A DNA stretch of 42,058 nucleotides from an uncultured Owenweeksia sp. Its GTDB lineage: Bacteria > Bacteroidota > Bacteroidia > Flavobacteriales > Schleiferiaceae. Location: positions 1 through 42,058 of the forward strand of contig CAKZRR010000006.1 in assembly GCA_937146805.1 (NCBI GenBank), in the 5' to 3' direction. A model generated the notes under the pieces. That model had not been told where the DNA came from, made no database searches, and saw only the letters and a list, made by a program, of their open reading frames with translations. Made by a program: the position numbers and the translations under genes. This document shows positions 12,599 to 18,724 of this stretch, in pieces (position 1 is the first letter of the stretch; the number at the start of each line of letters is the position of its first letter).

Positions 12599-12705
12599 AT
12601 GTTGCTTAGCAAGGGGTAAATGTTACTTATTTTAGGTAATTAACTGAAAAACAATAACTAACACCTTTCATTTAATGTTGCTTAAGCATTATTTAATATT
12701 TCTTA
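12599..12705 (-). promoter_or_regulatory. Four-box TAAGYAACAT array upstream of hsdR (21-55-21 spacing)
   Basis: On the + strand, boxes ATGTTGCTTA (12599), ATGTTACTTA (12620) and ATGTTGCTTA (12675) and a weaker ATATTTCTTA (12696, 8 of 10) have start-to-start distances of 21, 55 and 21 bp. All point the same way. The array lies 110 bp upstream of the hsdR start and overlaps the 3' end of the preceding gene. The same geometry occurs at 14142-14248. Conserved spacing with non-conserved sequence between boxes suggests protein-binding sites. Confidence 0.5.
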
Positions 12706-14142
12706 AAGGCATATTGTGCATCGGGATCCCTTTGTTTATTGCTCTTTCTTTCAAGTAACTGCTGTTCAACAAAAGCATTAAGGTAACGCCTAATTGTATT
12801 AGTGTGCGCATCACAAAATTTAGCCAAATCTGCTATTGTTGCCACTTGGTGCGCAAATAAATAATTAATAATATTTTGTTGAGTGTCGCTATAGTTACCC
12901 CAGTTGTCTTCTACAGTGGCAATCACGTTTTCCTGAATGGTTTTAGAATGGCCACTTATTTTGTTGCGTAATGTTAAGTACACATTTCCGTGGTCTTGTT
13001 TATACTCAGGTATGGAGAGCATAGATTTCTCCATAGATTCATAAATCCGAGAAACCCCTTCATTTAATTGGCGTACATATCCCATATCTTCTAGTACTCT
13101 TGCTACTCGTGGGTTTCTTGCAAAGCGCTCCGTTTTTATATTTTCTATAGTAACCTGTGCGGGTAGTGGCCCGCTGTTAGAAATTTCTAATCTATCCTCA
13201 AAATGCTTGATGTAAATAGCGCTGCCTTGCGAATTGTATGAGCGATGGCATAAAGCATTAACAACCCCTTCAAGCCAAGCCTCCTCAGGGTACTCAGGTA
13301 CTCTTCTAAATTTACCTTTAGATAAATCTAAAAAGTAATAATCTTTAAAGGAAGCATTTAAAAATGCTTTTACTTCATCAATAAGATTTGGAATATTATT
13401 TTCAAAGCGTTGGTCTTTTACCACATTATGTTCAGCGCCTGTAAGCGCCTCTTTGCCTTCGTACCGTATATATCGTAAAGATGCTGATGGGATATATTTT
13501 TCGGGATCTTTTGAAAACAACAATACAGCAGCATGCTTCAGTAAATATTTGTTAGCTTGCTTTTTAGCTAAATAGCGCTTGGTCAAAAGCTCAAGCGCAT
13601 CATCTTTGTAGTTTACTTTTTCTTTATACGATTCAAGTAATTCATTGTCTAAATCAGCCAGGTCAAAATCAATTACAAGCTCTTCTTCAAACTTTCTAAT
13701 GGCTTTACTTTTTTACCCCATCACGGTCTAATTTACGGTTGGTATCCAAAACTCTCAAAAACACCTGCTCATTATCTTTTCTACAAAATAGGCGCTCAAA
13801 ATCTTGCTCCACATGGTATAGAAAAATAAGACAGCCCTGCACTTGGGCCTCCTCTAAAGTAATGTTACAAGCCGGGTGAATAAAATTATGAACCAGCGTG
13901 CGGTATTTATCTAAACCATTACCCAATTCTCTTAGATCCTGAAAATTGCCATTATCAGCCATACCAAATGCCAATACACCACCATCAGCATTTAGCATAC
14001 CTATCAACTCATCCGCAATTTTGGTGGGCTTAATGTCTTTTTCGCCTAAGCCCTTACGCTCAAAGTATTGGTTCTCTTTTTTGGCACCCAAATAGTGCTC
14101 GGTAATGAGTGGGTTAGTAGTTGATATGAAAAACGTAGACAT
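12693..14142 (-). pseudogene. AlbA_2 / ATPase / winged-helix regulator-like protein, frameshifted
   Basis: Two adjacent frames form one gene of about 483 codons. The first (14142-13705) carries the AlbA_2 (Schlafen-type) DNA-binding domain: FERKGLGEKDIKPTKIADEL, LNADGGVLAFGMADNG. The second (from about 13712 to 12693) has the GHKL-like ATPase domain of this family (EGVVNALCHRSY, LEISNSGPLP, NEGVSRIYESM), then a C-terminal winged helix (TIADLAKFCDAHTNTIRRYL). The frames join if one A is removed from the six-A run at 13710-13715, giving DRDGVKSKAIRKFEEEL. So this is a one-base frameshift mutation, a homopolymer sequencing error, or slippage-controlled expression. Boxes of the TAAGYAACAT array lie directly upstream. 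Relatives are putative transcriptional regulators, often near restriction systems. Confidence 0.75.
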
Positions 14143-14248: not shown

Positions 14249-14346
14249 ATTTTATACACCGCACCCGGCTCAGCAGCCATCTGCAATATAGCTTCACTTT
14301 CTTCTTTTATCAAACCTACGGCAAAGGGTTTTTGTAGGATGGCTTT
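14242..14346 (-). pseudogene. Possible HsdS C-terminal tail relic
   Basis: A short minus-strand frame with no start reads KAILQKPFAVGLIKEES followed by EAILQMAAEPGAVYKIK and a stop at 14242-14244. Its first 13 residues resemble the tail of the intact HsdS (KSILQKAFAGELT, 8 of 13 identical). It sits directly after the glycosylase-like gene, separated from it by stop codons. It may be the stranded end of an older hsdS gene split by acquisition of the glycosylase gene, or a chance similarity. Confidence 0.35.
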
Positions 14347-14352
14347 TTAAAA

Positions 14353-14916
14353 TTATGTAAATTCAATTTTCGATTTCCAATTCTCCAACATATACTCAAA
14401 CTTCTTAGTTCCTTTGGGCACTCTTGCTGCCATGCTAGGAGATACTAGCAGTGCTATCCCTTCTATTTTCGCTATTTCAGTTCTCCATTCTTTTAACTTC
14501 TGACCTTTACCCCATGTACTGTAAACCTTAACATCTGGGTTTCTTTCTATCACTTTAAGGATCGTATTTGTATTGTACTCTCTTGTGGTATATCCGTTGA
14601 TTATTTTGGCGTCACTGTATCCTTTACCTAAAACAAATTCTACTTTCTCTTCTGGCACATTAACAGCATGTATCATATCCATGCAGGCGATGCCATTTTG
14701 CTTGAGTTCGGCAAAAAACTCCATTGGACTATCTTGTTGGAATTTACAACCTGTTATTTCTCTTAGTAATGGCCAGAGTTGATTTGTTGCTCTACCGTAA
14801 TAGTAATTGACTTTATCTCCACCTGCTGGGTTAAAAGTGCCCAAAAACAAATGCTTAACAGGCCATTTAGGTATGTAATAATCTTTTGTTGAAAGTTGGT
14901 GCACTACTCTTTTCAT
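14353..14916 (-). CDS. Uracil-DNA glycosylase superfamily protein (deoxyinosine-glycosylase-like)
   Basis: 187 residues. Motif 1 is HLFLGTFNPAGGDKVNYYYG followed by RATNQLWPLL, which is the pattern of the HDG/UDG-family (GTxPS...FYYGNPRNxFWPxL). A late SPSMAARV segment lies in the position of the DNA-intercalation motif. Family members flip out and excise damaged or deaminated bases. The exact substrate cannot be read here, because the usual catalytic Asp/Asn position is only approximately matched (N in GTFN). The start codon overlaps the hsdS stop by 4 bases (ATGA), so it is probably translated with the restriction-modification genes. That position suggests a defence or DNA-modification role rather than housekeeping repair. 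Confidence 0.75.
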   Translation of the reverse strand: MKRVVHQLSTKDYYIPKWPVKHLFLGTFNPAGGDKVNYYYGRATNQLWPLLREITGCKFQQDSPMEFFAELKQNGIACMDMIHAVNVPEEKVEFVLGKGYSDAKIINGYTTREYNTNTILKVIERNPDVKVYSTWGKGQKLKEWRTEIAKIEGIALLVSPSMAARVPKGTKKFEYMLENWKSKIEFT

Positions 14917-16130
14917 ACCAAAACCTCTTTACCTGTTAACTCCCCTGCAAAGGCTTTTTGCAAAATGGACTTTTTGAGCTCTTCTAGATTGTTTGCTTTT
15001 TGCTCGTAGCCAAGTAGAATTTCTTCTGTATGGTCACTTAGATTAACCATTTTTTCTATTAGACTTTTTTGAGCTTCAATATGTGGGAAGGATATTCTAA
15101 TTCTTTTCAAATCGGCATTATACAATCTAGAAATCGTTGCGCCTTTAGAAGGGTTCCAATCGCAAACGCCATAGAATTGATATAAATATTCATTCAATAC
15201 AAACTCTTCATTATTATCAATCCAGACAATATTTGAGTCTTGGAAAAAAGCTGGCTCACCATCATAAATAACTCTTCTCCCTATAGTTCCCGAAGCAGAT
15301 ATTAAAACATCCCCAACTTTTGGAAAGGAATATTTAGTCTTAAACTCCTCGTAAATTTCCTTTGAGATGAAAGCATTAGGCGTTTTTCCGAATGTTCCAA
15401 TCTTATAAAATGGAATATCTCCTTCGGTTTTAGTTTGTTCTTTCAATATTCTCTTACACATAGACGGCTTCCCTAACTCCCCCAAACTTTTCTCCTCCCA
15501 GCCATCACCTCCTGAGCCTGTTGAAGGATGGCTAAATATTTCATTGAGCTTAGATTGAAAAAGCTCTTTAGCGTTTTCTATGTTTTTTTCTATGTTGGCT
15601 TTGGCTTGGTCTATGGCAGCAAAGGCTTGGTCTAAAAGCGCTACAATTTGTTTTTGTTCGGTGAGGGATTTAGGAAAGTTAATCTCAATTTGCTTCAGGT
15701 TTTTGAGAATAATTCTTCTTATTGCAACACCAGTTTTTTTTCCTATCGCAGCTTTTAAAAAGTTTGGATGCAATAATATATACTCTAAAAGCTCAGAATT
15801 TATTACACCTTTTTTGGGTCGCAGAATTGCCAAGGAAGACAAAACAACAAACTCTTTTTCAAAATTGACTAAAGCTACTTTTCCAACTGTACCATCTTTA
15901 GAAAATAACAAATCTCCTTCATTCGGTTTACACCCATTTTTAAGAAGCAAATCATAATTTTTTTTATCAATGAATTTGCAATTATCAAAATCAATAACAC
16001 CGTTTGAAATATCCCTCACTGTTATATATGGAAATTTATCCTCGCCTGAGGATTTGGGTGAAAAGTGACTTCCGTCCGTAATCTCCTCACAGATTTCAAT
16101 AAGGTGTCTATTTAACCAACCCGCTTTCAT
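14913..16130 (-). CDS. hsdS: Type I restriction enzyme specificity subunit
   Basis: 405 residues. It has two target-recognition domains (about 1-150 and 212-350), each followed by a conserved coiled-coil spacer: LTEQKQIVALLDQAFAAIDQ (about 155-200) and IEAQKSLIEKMVNLSDHTEE (about 355-405, ending LKKSILQKAFAGELTG). Each domain reads one half of a bipartite recognition site and the helices set the gap between the halves. It overlaps hsdM (stop/start ATGA at 16127-16130) and the glycosylase-like gene by 4 bases. Residues HPSTGSGGDG in the linker are encoded by a REP-like repeat sequence (15511-15530). The gene appears intact. Confidence 0.92.
   Translation of the reverse strand: MKAGWLNRHLIEICEEITDGSHFSPKSSGEDKFPYITVRDISNGVIDFDNCKFIDKKNYDLLLKNGCKPNEGDLLFSKDGTVGKVALVNFEKEFVVLSSLAILRPKKGVINSELLEYILLHPNFLKAAIGKKTGVAIRRIILKNLKQIEINFPKSLTEQKQIVALLDQAFAAIDQAKANIEKNIENAKELFQSKLNEIFSHPSTGSGGDGWEEKSLGELGKPSMCKRILKEQTKTEGDIPFYKIGTFGKTPNAFISKEIYEEFKTKYSFPKVGDVLISASGTIGRRVIYDGEPAFFQDSNIVWIDNNEEFVLNEYLYQFYGVCDWNPSKGATISRLYNADLKRIRISFPHIEAQKSLIEKMVNLSDHTEEILLGYEQKANNLEELKKSILQKAFAGELTGKEVLV
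15511..15530. repeat. REP-like element inside hsdS
   Basis: CCTGAGCCTGTTGAAGGATG resembles the widespread CCTGAGCxTGTCGAAGG palindromic intergenic repeat. It is in frame and encodes the HsdS linker HPSTGSGG between the first coiled coil and the second recognition domain. Confidence 0.45.
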
Positions 16131-17633
16131 ATCAAATCTTTAATGGATTGAAGAATGGTGTTGGTTTCTGCATCCAAGCTTTCCATTTCGTTTAGAATTT
16201 CAGCAGGTGCACGCAATGGTGCTTCTTTGGGTGTGTTTGGGTTTTTTACCGAAAGGTCCACTTCGCTTCCATTTCGACTCCGCTCAATGTCCGCTACAGA
16301 ATAGTTCCAGCTTTTTTCGGTTTCAGGGCCTTTTGCGCTTCGACTCCGCTCAGCGGCCAAGGCCACAAACTCCGCCATATCCTTATCGTTTAGCGGATTG
16401 GTTTTACCCATGTTTCGCCCCGGGTCTAGCTGGTAGTACCAAATGTTTTTAGTGGGTTCTCCTTTCTGAAAAAAGAGAGTTACTGTTTTTACACCTGCCC
16501 CTAAGAAGGTGCCACCCGGCATATCTAAAATGGTATGCAGGTTACAGCTTTCCAATAGCAGCTTACGCAAAGCCACCGAAGCATTATCGGTATTGCTCAG
16601 CACAGTGTTTTTAATCACAATGGCTGCACGTCCGCCCGTTTTTTAAACTCTTTATAAAATGCTGCATAAACAGGAAAGCGGTTTCTCCTGTTTTAATGTC
16701 AAAGTTCTGTTGTACCTCTTTGCGCTCTTTTCCACCGAAAGGGGGATTGGCCAAAATAACATGGTAACGGTTTTTCTCTTGTATGTCTCTAATGTTCTCG
16801 CCAAGGGTATTGGTATGAATAATGTTTGGGGCTTCTATGCCGTGCAGTATCATGTTCATAATGCCAATTACATAGGCCAAGTTCTTTTTCTCTTTACCGT
16901 AAAAGGTGCTTTCTTGTAAAGTCTTGAGGTTGTCTGTGGTCTTTTCCATGCGCTGGTACATGTAGTCGTAGGCTTCGCACAAGAAACCACAAGACCCTGC
17001 GGCACCATCGTAAACTTTTTCGCCCATTTGTGGGTCTAGCACATTAATCATGGCTCTAATCAGCGGACGTGGTGTGTAGTACTGTCCACCGTTACGCCCT
17101 GCATTGCCCATGTTTTTAATCTTGGTTTCGTACAAGTGGCTGAGCTCGTGCTTGTCTTTGGTAGAACGGAAAGGCAATTCGTCTGCGTATTCTAATATCT
17201 CACGTAAGTTATAGCCCGATTGAATTTTGTTTTTTAACTCAGAGAAGATTTCGCCAATCTTGTATTCTATGGTTTGGGCATGGTCTGCCTTTTGCTTAAA
17301 CTGAGCGAGGTAAGGAAAGAGCTTGCCATCTACAAAAGCTACCAAGTCGGGCCCTGTTAACGCCACGTGATGGTCCAGTTCGACTTCGCTCTCTGAACCT
17401 TTTTTTAATTTTTTAGGCATAGCCCAGTTTGGCCAACGGTACTCTTCGTCTAGTATGTATTTGTAATCTTCTCCTTTTAATTCGGCTTCGTCTGCTTTGT
17501 CCTGCTCTAGCTCGTCTAGGTAACGTAAAAACATTACCCAAGAGGTTTGCCCTATGTAATCCAGTTCACTGTCAGCCCCAGAATCTTTGTACAGGAGGTC
17601 GTCTATATTTTTAAATGTTTGTTCGAATGTCAT
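16127..17633 (-). pseudogene. hsdM: Type I restriction-modification N6-adenine methyltransferase, frameshifted hsdM
   Basis: Two overlapping frames make one gene of about 501 codons. The first (17633-16611, 340 aa) has the HsdM N-terminal helical domain, then SAM motif I region YDGAAGSCGFLCEAYDYMY and the catalytic NPPFGG (N6-adenine methylase N/D-PP-F/Y/W). It goes out of frame at SLKNGRTCSHCD and stops. The second (to 16127, 163 aa) continues with IKNTVLSNTDNASVALRKLL and LDMPGGTFLGAGVKTVTLFF. Removing one A from the six-A run at 16639-16644 gives SLKTGGRAAIVIKNT, the family sequence. Without that correction no full methylase is made. Three REP-like peptides are inserted relative to typical HsdM. 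It overlaps hsdS by 4 bases. Confidence 0.85.
16273..16352. repeat. Two TTCGACTCCGCTCA REP-like elements inside hsdM
   Basis: The 14-mer TTCGACTCCGCTCA occurs at 16273-16286 and 16339-16352. On the coding strand they encode ERSRNGSEVD and ERSRSAKG within a variable part of HsdM. A related TTCGACTTCGCTC is at 17379-17391, encoding GSESEVELD. All are in frame. Confidence 0.5.
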
Positions 17634-17686: not shown

Positions 17687-18724
17687 TTACATTACTTGGC
17701 TTTTTTTCAGTCCACCAAATTCATTAACATACTCATCAAGCAAGGATTCCATACTCCCGAGACATTTCTTAAAGTGATCCATATCAATATTATCAGAATC
17801 CTTTGCGTTAAAAGGATCTTTAACAATTAAAATTGAAGTCTTCCTTGCTGACCTAATTGAAACCTTGTAGTCTAACTTTTTAAAGGATGGCTGCTTTTTT
17901 AAGTTTAAAACAACTTGACGAATGTGGTTCTTCGATTCCTTCTTGTCATTTATCATAAAAACTGCAAGAGTAAGAGATCGGTCAGGTACTTGTATGAACT
18001 GTATCTTCAACCGAAAACCTTCAAATTCTTTTCTATGATAGAAGAAGTACGAGTCTCTCCCCCGCTCTATTGCCCACCTAGTGTCCTTATCTTCTAAAAA
18101 ATCCTCTAAGTACATATAGAAACCTTCAGCAGCTCTCAAATCTGATGCTAAACACTTTTTGCTATTGAACGACTTTGTACGTTCTTCTATGCTTTTAAGA
18201 TGCCTGACAAAATCATTAAATATATGATTTGAACTATCGCAGTCATCTAAGATATCCAGTATTGCACCTCTGTTTACAATTATATAATCATCCCCAGTTT
18301 CAATAATTCTTTTAGCATTCTTACTATCGTTCCCCGTTTTCAGGTAAATGGTTTTTAACGTTAAAGTAACTTTTCTTCTTTCTATCTCCGCGTTAGCTGC
18401 TTCTCTGTATCTTTCTAGTTGGTTACCATGCTGTCCAGTATGAGTTTTATCCTCAATTATGATAAAGTACTCTTCATTGATAATAACAGCAATGTCAATT
18501 TTCTTAAACTGCTTTAATATTTCTACTGAAGTAATTTGATAGTCATCGGATTCTTCAAGTAGCAACTTTCGAATAAATGTATTTGAAACCTCCTTTAAAT
18601 CTTTATCAATCACTTTTTTATCACTCCATTCTAACAGCCATATAAAAAAAGCATCTTGGGAAAGCTCCTTGGGTGCGTGTGTGAAAATATTTGGTGCTGC
18701 GGGTTTTGAGTCAAGGTGCATCAT
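17687..18724 (-). CDS. PD-(D/E)XK nuclease superfamily protein (PDDEXK_4-like)
   Basis: 345 residues. The N-terminal PNIFTHAPKELSQDAFFIWL followed by LEW is the signature opening of the PDDEXK_4 family. The nuclease core is visible as KIDIAVIINEEYFIIIEDKT (D...E-D-K) at about residues 73-93, followed by QLERYREAA. The C-terminal half (about 200-345, including AAEGFYMYLEDFLE) has no recognised motif. The family is widespread and of unproven function; its place as first gene of a leftward run with hsdM, hsdS and hsdR points to phage or plasmid defence. There are 53 bp between its end and the hsdM start, including a lone TTGTTACTTA box (17680-17689). Confidence 0.7.
   Translation of the reverse strand: MMHLDSKPAAPNIFTHAPKELSQDAFFIWLLEWSDKKVIDKDLKEVSNTFIRKLLLEESDDYQITSVEILKQFKKIDIAVIINEEYFIIIEDKTHTGQHGNQLERYREAANAEIERRKVTLTLKTIYLKTGNDSKNAKRIIETGDDYIIVNRGAILDILDDCDSSNHIFNDFVRHLKSIEERTKSFNSKKCLASDLRAAEGFYMYLEDFLEDKDTRWAIERGRDSYFFYHRKEFEGFRLKIQFIQVPDRSLTLAVFMINDKKESKNHIRQVVLNLKKQPSFKKLDYKVSIRSARKTSILIVKDPFNAKDSDNIDMDHFKKCLGSMESLLDEYVNEFGGLKKSQVM

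Follow-up and report, generated by a model that had tools for sequence, protein, structure and literature searches.

A predicted UDG-superfamily glycosylase gene between hsdS and hsdR of a type I restriction locus from an uncultured Owenweeksia species, and the restriction contexts of its relatives

In the stretch of DNA analysed here (the window, 42,058 nucleotides of contig CAKZRR010000006.1 from an uncultured Owenweeksia sp.), a gene for a glycosylase-like protein lies between hsdS and hsdR of a type I restriction locus and overlaps the end of hsdS. The protein has a predicted UDG-superfamily fold and motifs that are conserved in its closest relatives, and related glycosylases recur in the same hsdS-hsdR slot and beside genes for GmrSD_N, type ISP and Eco57I-like proteins in other genomes. 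On the basis of sequence and a structural model, it is possible, although our confidence falls a little short of an even balance, that the gene is an R-linked accessory effector of the type I island, whose product would excise altered bases from incoming phage DNA.

Read in the direction of transcription, the locus (Table 1) consists of a PD-(D/E)XK nuclease-like gene, a split hsdM, hsdS, the glycosylase gene, a split gene with AlbA_2 and HATPase_c_4 parts, and hsdR. A preliminary description of this DNA had placed the glycosylase gene between hsdS and hsdR, and the Methylase_S, ResIII and EcoEI_R_C profile matches confirm this position, which on the shared strand is that of an R-linked ORF. 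The gene is not adjacent to hsdR, from which it is separated by the AlbA_2 and HATPase_c_4 ORFs. The 4-bp overlap with hsdS given in the same description also holds: the frame is intact on the minus strand (the plus-strand translation of 14353-14916 contains 6 stops), and the TGA stop of hsdS, also on the minus strand, sits within ..GGTATGAAAAG.. at the glycosylase start, so that the ATGA overlap is exactly 4 bp. From this junction we infer that translation of hsdS and the glycosylase gene may be coupled.

Within the operon, hsdS, the glycosylase gene and hsdR are open reading frames, and two other genes are interrupted. The AlbA_2 and HATPase_c_4 ORFs match successive parts of phrog_12156 (12-144 and 194-474 of 485) and are therefore treated as one frameshifted gene. 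The hsdM frame changes within 16127-17633, close to a short A-run, and its split may be due to decay, phase variation or sequencing error. As the comparison of frameshifts with relatives covered hsdM and the AlbA_2/HATPase gene alone among the window genes, sequencing error and decay are indistinguishable. With both genes frameshifted, the restriction system of this copy may not work, and this copy of the locus may be decaying. The PD-(D/E)XK nuclease-like gene is possibly part of the island as a further defence gene. The glycosylase gene itself is flanked by two hsdS-like tails (14321-14348 and 14947-14974); the first encodes ILQKPFA, and the peptide ILQKxFA is common to both copies. This arrangement suggests that the glycosylase gene was acquired at the hsdS end, alone or with a new hsdS, although short repeats can arise by chance. 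The window's own genome (G000) also contains one GmrSD_N gene, on contig C9 at 84034-84504, which is unlinked to the locus.

Table 1. Features of the type I locus in the window, in order of transcription.
Feature	Position	Strand	Evidence
PD-(D/E)XK nuclease-like gene just upstream of hsdM	17687..18724	-	PF14281 8.7e-08; PADLOC PDC-S26 1.4e-09
hsdM, 5' part, before the frameshift	16611..17633	-	PF02384 (N6_Mtase) profile 2-178, PF12161; PADLOC MTase_I
hsdM, 3' part, after the frameshift	16127..16618	-	PF02384 profile 183-293
hsdS, type I specificity subunit, 405 aa	14913..16130	-	Methylase_S PF01420 1.6e-39
ATGA overlap of hsdS stop codon and glycosylase start codon	14913..14916	-	junction sequence
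UDG-superfamily (HDG-related) DNA glycosylase gene, predicted	14353..14916	-	intact ORF, 187 aa, ATG start
Relic of hsdS 3' end, right after the glycosylase stop	14321..14348	-	direct repeat, 28 nt, 79% to 14947-14974
AlbA_2 part of split AlbA_2/HATPase gene	13705..14142	-	PF04326 5.8e-12; phrog_12156
HATPase_c_4 (RecG-C-like) part of split AlbA_2/HATPase gene	12693..13586	-	PF13749 2e-19; phrog_12156 2.9e-57
hsdR, EcoEI-like restriction/translocase subunit, 820 aa	10027..12489	-	ResIII PF04851, EcoEI_R_C PF08463; PADLOC REase_I

By its profile matches and modelled structure, the product is a divergent UDG-superfamily protein. Its NCBIfam match, TIGR04274 (hypoxanthine glycosylase), scores 30.5 bits where the cut-off is 80, which leaves the protein outside that equivalog; three of the five clade-A relatives tested (clades are defined below) score 30-37 bits. 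The window protein has no match to Pfam PF03167 (UDG) up to E 10, and none of its matches in Pfam, PHROGs and PADLOC is convincing. The missing PF03167 match reflects the reach of the curated model and therefore limits the label, not the fold; the same family is matched by the HDG of locus L117 and is likewise not matched by the clade-B protein of L085. An AlphaFold2 model built from five sequences (pLDDT 69.6, pTM 0.73, with pLDDT <50 at residues 29-43, a stretch including part of the motif region) has the predicted UDG fold across the whole chain. The comparison of a predicted structure with UDG family members, proposed in the preliminary description, gives as its best match 2L3F, an HDG-like Methanosarcina protein (Z 10.4 over 151 residues; Foldseek E 1.5e-4), followed by MUG (1MUG, Z 9.6) and TDG entries (Z about 8). 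A profile of 13 relatives, including the window protein, matches 2L3F by sequence at 4.4e-8.

The motifs agree with this placement. Five relatives with 51-57% identity to the window protein retain them, and the window frame is therefore a conserved protein rather than a chance ORF. G26-T27-F28-N29-P30, Y38-Y40, R42, N45, W48, D80, D102 and S159-P160-S161 do not vary among the six clade-A sequences, and N45 aligns with the conserved Asn of the HDG YYxxxxN..W segment, which we take to be the catalytic residue. With the family 6 UDG/hypoxanthine-DNA glycosylases (TIGR04274), the window protein shares the fold, the G...P and YYxxxxN..W core, D80 and a 97.9% profile match (hhalign, clade-A profile against HDGs); it differs from the TIGR04274 HDGs in its low score, in having SPSMAAR as the C-terminal motif in place of the LPSxS of the HDG sample, and in belonging to a separate clade of the tree. 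Taken together, the low TIGR04274 score and the fold and profile matches indicate a UDG-superfamily protein that is near the HDGs but is not a TIGR04274 member, and the assignment to a UDG/HDG-superfamily glycosylase family in the preliminary description is borne out by the predicted fold and the retained motifs.

Apart from the window, no match of >38% identity is listed among 60 relatives, 395 phylum genomes and 250 genomes of the order of G177, and the matches at or below 38% in those sets mostly cover part of the protein. A contig scan by exact short peptide patterns, which is not exhaustive, detected one close relative (L037, 51% identity) and three Pedobacter loci at 25-29% identity. Profile searches added one clade-A relative among 395 class genomes (L049, in G782) and three among 64 genomes of the order of G895 (L079 in G1090, L080 in G1091 and L081 in G1076). 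They were extended to 88 family genomes and to genomes from the orders of G782 (46), G177 (250) and G867 (10). In the family genomes, the clade-A gene is absent from the three others of the window's genus. The set of loci left out 2 of 28 rows from the order of G895 (both G1119) and, save for G491, rows weaker than ~3e-7 in the search of the order of G177. No member of the window's clade came up in the viral, phage and plasmid searches; no plasmid was matched by the window, L069, L053 or L079 proteins, and no phage by the L085 protein. A viral or phage origin of the window gene was rejected, as the viral contigs gave no relatives and the peptide pattern gave 8 short chance frames. The one match in the phage collection (MT835937, E 4e-3) seems to be a bacterial contig carrying an ordinary HDG, and one further candidate relative, L010, was dropped as a chance match.

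In an IQ-TREE phylogeny of 92 rows, built by a rapid, short search with no branch support other than SH-aLRT (two ORF pieces of L104 were excluded), the window protein belongs to clade A (6 rows, SH-aLRT 99), and the other groups are clade B (5 rows, 95), clade C (23 rows, 100) and the HDG clade (27 rows, 100). The 23 HDG-like controls on the tree fall mainly in the HDG clade (20), with L118 and L119 beside it and L134 elsewhere. Neighbourhoods were taken for 91 loci, the window included, and neighbour families were called by small profiles built from panel proteins, an approach that can overlook RM genes dissimilar to the panel. For several loci (for example L049, L050, L059, L080 and L081), the contig measures 4.6 to 7.4 kb, and the neighbourhood is truncated accordingly. 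The AlbA neighbour category was seeded with the compared proteins and is no evidence of kinship.

By these panel profiles, type I, IIG/ISP or GmrSD genes lie within five genes of the glycosylase in 12 of the 91 loci. Glycosylases occupy the hsdS-hsdR slot on the same strand at five loci in four clades: the window (clade A), L053 and L085 (clade B, both in G895), L069 (clade C, G654) and L117 (HDG clade, G1089). At L053, a 251-aa ORF separates hsdS from the glycosylase gene, and at L085 Y1_Tnp-like and PLDc_2 genes do so; a HATPase_c_4 gene lies between the glycosylase gene and hsdR in both the window and L053. The order at L117 (6434-13824) is hsdM, hsdS, OGG-like glycosylase, HDG, hsdR. The OGG-like protein (PF21790 6e-28) is unrelated to the neighbouring HDG, which has an N-terminal extension and matches TIGR04274 at 158 bits, above the cut-off, and PF03167 at 4.8e-10. 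Gene overlaps are found with hsdS in the window (4 bp) and at L069 (10 bp, the glycosylase start codon being within the last 10 bases of hsdS), and with GmrSD_N at L074 (8 bp), and the two glycosylase genes of L117 overlap each other by 1 bp.

GmrSD_N genes neighbour the glycosylase at L085 (two, inside the type I locus), at L099 and L101 (two each, adjacent) and at L074 (one). At the clade-B loci L099 (3652-8403) and L101 (6401-10407), the shorter of the two GmrSD_N genes alongside has a DUF7834 (PF25202) match, and the glycosylase and the two GmrSD_N genes form a candidate three-gene defence module. Other restriction contexts are more varied. The L049 glycosylase precedes a 1046-aa type ISP protein (PF18135 2e-84), an Eco57I-like RM enzyme with HSDR_N and TaqI_C lies two genes from the L108 glycosylase, the L113 glycosylase is divergent from an hsdMS pair, and a 147-aa HSDR_N fragment is found two genes upstream at L079. 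No RM gene was detected by the panel profiles within five genes of the clade-A glycosylases of L037, L080 and L081; the neighbourhoods of L080, L081 and L049 are incomplete because their contigs are <8 kb. At L054 and L056, which are outside clade C, a nearby 939-aa ORF is matched by the UvrD panel profile, and at L054 this ORF is PDDEXK_1 with a sub-cut-off AddB match.

Counted by clade, RM or GmrSD genes are found within five genes in three of the six clade-A loci (the window, L049 and, as a fragment only, L079), in four of the five clade-B loci (type I RM or GmrSD), and in 1/23 of clade C, 1/27 of the HDG clade and 0/23 of the HDG-like controls. The restriction association of the preliminary description is thus retained for clades A and B and abandoned for the other two: a link for the whole glycosylase family was cut back to some clades because clade C and the HDG clade are not RM-linked, and the comparison of all family genes with the HDG-like controls is not significant (6/52 without the window against 0/23, P 0.10). 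The survey of hsdMSR adjacency that it had proposed yields the five slot loci in four clades on the one hand and the 23 controls without an RM link on the other. Excluding the window and the L079 fragment, 5/10 of clades A and B are RM-linked against 1/27 of the HDG clade (P 0.003), and the same 5/10 against clade C gives P 0.005, both values being descriptive only because the clades were picked after the contexts had been seen. The RM label, taken for 11 loci (including the looser L113 and L108 but not L079), requires at least 9 changes on the tree. Clade C is present in 9/10 of the searched genomes of genus g327 and therefore looks inherited and repair-like.

The 48 genomes contain 59 hsdS loci, 33 GmrSD loci and 52 family genes. 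Of the 52, four are found no more than 3 kb from hsdS where 0.127 would be expected (P 1e-5), or three where 0.125 would be (P 3e-4) if the window, selected because of its position, is omitted; the same distance from GmrSD gives three, with 0.067 expected (P 5e-5). All three P values refer to a uniform-placement null that ignores defence islands, and the observed four near hsdS and three near GmrSD were counted by eye from locus listings.

Several known systems combine some of these elements. In the available excerpts of PMC11078745 and PMC13160076, Brig1 and Brig3 are UDG-like enzymes that are encoded in defence islands and remove altered bases from phage DNA, Brig1 homologues are found near BREX/Pgl, restriction endonucleases and other genes, and an ADP-ribosylglycohydrolase gene is reported beside Brig1 and near Brig3. 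The proteins described here likewise belong to the UDG superfamily, and an ADP-ribosylglycohydrolase gene (14694-15641, PF03747 7e-73) lies about 6 kb from the clade-A glycosylase of L037. In contrast to the Brig genes, the window gene is inside a type I operon. The family 4 UDG 4ZBY, the best structural match of Brig1 in the excerpted text of PMC11078745, matches the window model with a Z of only 6.2 against 10.4 for 2L3F, a comparison with Brig1 made via 4ZBY.

According to the accessible portion of PMC4619093, R-linked ORFs (rlo genes, such as RloF) are accessory genes between hsdS and hsdR, GmrSD genes occur within type I loci, and one nuclease of the GmrSD family acts on DNA with glucosylated hydroxymethylcytosine. 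The window gene resembles RloF in its slot, but encodes a predicted base-excision enzyme and not a DUF262 protein. R.PabI-type restriction glycosylases use base excision for restriction (excerpts of PMC10273834 and PMC4357717), as is proposed for the window protein, but they belong to another superfamily, named HALFPIPE (excerpt of PMC7806768), and are themselves the sequence-specific restriction enzyme. UDG is among the domains of DefensePredictor-predicted systems that are not yet validated as defensive, as stated in the accessible part of PMC13092281; excerpts of PMC5387724 and PMC12707154 provide background on the UDG family and on restriction, respectively. None of the full-text literature matches listed, a set that most subscription papers fall outside, describes in its available text a gene for a UDG-family or other glycosylase lying between hsdS and hsdR.

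That this fold recurs in the slot and next to modification-dependent nucleases speaks more for defence than for chance cargo, and a Brig-like attack on altered phage bases, for which the analogy is helped by the GmrSD_N pairing, is our best guess. The glycosylase would be made in step with HsdS through the overlapping start codon and would remove an altered base (for example one that is hydroxymethylated, uracil-like or deaminated) from incoming phage DNA. The resulting abasic sites would block the phage DNA, and coverage would be extended to phages whose altered bases hide type I sites. The catalytic activity, substrate, anti-phage use and joint expression of the window glycosylase are presumptive in this account, and although the defence reading leads its rivals, we hold it at somewhat less than one half because of the window frameshifts, the mixed clade-A contexts, the contig-cut neighbourhoods and a function that is only predicted. 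The inherited, repair-like clade C, the UvrD-matched ORF near L054 and L056, the non-significant comparison of all family genes with the controls and the middling confidence of the model also count against it, and position alone is weak evidence in a slot where accessory genes are known to gather.

The alternative that survives best, though we consider it unlikely, is that the glycosylase is passenger or mobile cargo with its own unrelated role, since the slot and defence islands gather genes. Accessory genes are known from the slot (R-linked ORFs and RloF, in the accessible portion of PMC4619093), but proteins of the present kind occupy it in four clades, at L117 as two unrelated glycosylases at once. 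Clade A is sporadic, with its single close relative from the contig scan, one from the 395 class genomes and three from the 64 genomes of the order of G895; the other three genomes in the window's genus lack its gene, its contexts are mixed, and the hsdS-tail repeat around the glycosylase gene points to insertion. Against this stand the gene overlaps in the window, at L069 and L074 and between the L117 glycosylases, together with an enrichment that exceeds uniform chance, albeit under a null that ignores island clustering.

Vsr is a repair partner for 5-methylcytosine, and deamination of N6-methyladenine gives hypoxanthine. A Vsr-like partner of the type I methylase, which would protect the host by removing hypoxanthine from deaminated N6-methyladenine at type I sites or by dealing with break-linked damage, is improbable here. 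The closest named family is indeed a deoxyinosine glycosylase (TIGR04274), and the L117 type I operon carries an HDG above the cut-off of that family, but the window protein itself is far below this cut-off and has SPSMAAR instead of LPSxS, and the OGG-like enzyme of L117 would be superfluous for hypoxanthine repair. The GmrSD_N loci L099, L101 and L074, which have no methylase within eight genes by the panel profiles, also argue against a role confined to methylation repair. Given the invariance of G26-P30, Y38-Y40, R42, N45, W48, D80, D102 and S159-S161 in the six clade-A sequences, it is very improbable that the protein is a catalytically dead UDG fold serving the restriction complex as sensor or regulator, a reading that would accord with the poorly modelled residues 29-43 in the motif region and with the departure of the C-terminal motif from that of the HDGs.

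If the defence reading is extended beyond the window, the type I loci of these bacteria may repeatedly recruit glycosylases (UDG-like and, once, OGG-like) as dedicated effectors, with the GmrSD-glycosylase pairs as a type IV counterpart, a generalization that we regard as rather doubtful. Within one operon, HsdR would cut unmodified foreign DNA and the glycosylase would strip altered bases from DNA unreadable to HsdS, joining sequence-specific restriction to base excision of altered phage DNA. The uncharacterised clades (the GmrSD-linked clade B, and the L117 pair of OGG and HDG) would then be places to seek enzymes of new base specificity, and a repair family would have been recruited to defence, with the widespread clade C as a contrast to the RM-linked members. 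Parts of this picture are already known from the excerpted sources, namely the R-linked ORFs of the slot and GmrSD in type I loci (PMC4619093) and base excision by Brig1 and Brig3 (PMC11078745, PMC13160076).

Two further arrangements were observed among the relatives. A 332/333-aa gene, for which there is no Pfam family, lies right after the glycosylase gene at L079 (10389-11387) and L081 (5845-6846), with an overlap of 4 bp at L081. Adjacent pairs of UDG-superfamily genes, the two members belonging to different clades, occur at L075 (9294-11203) and L100 (9095-11016).
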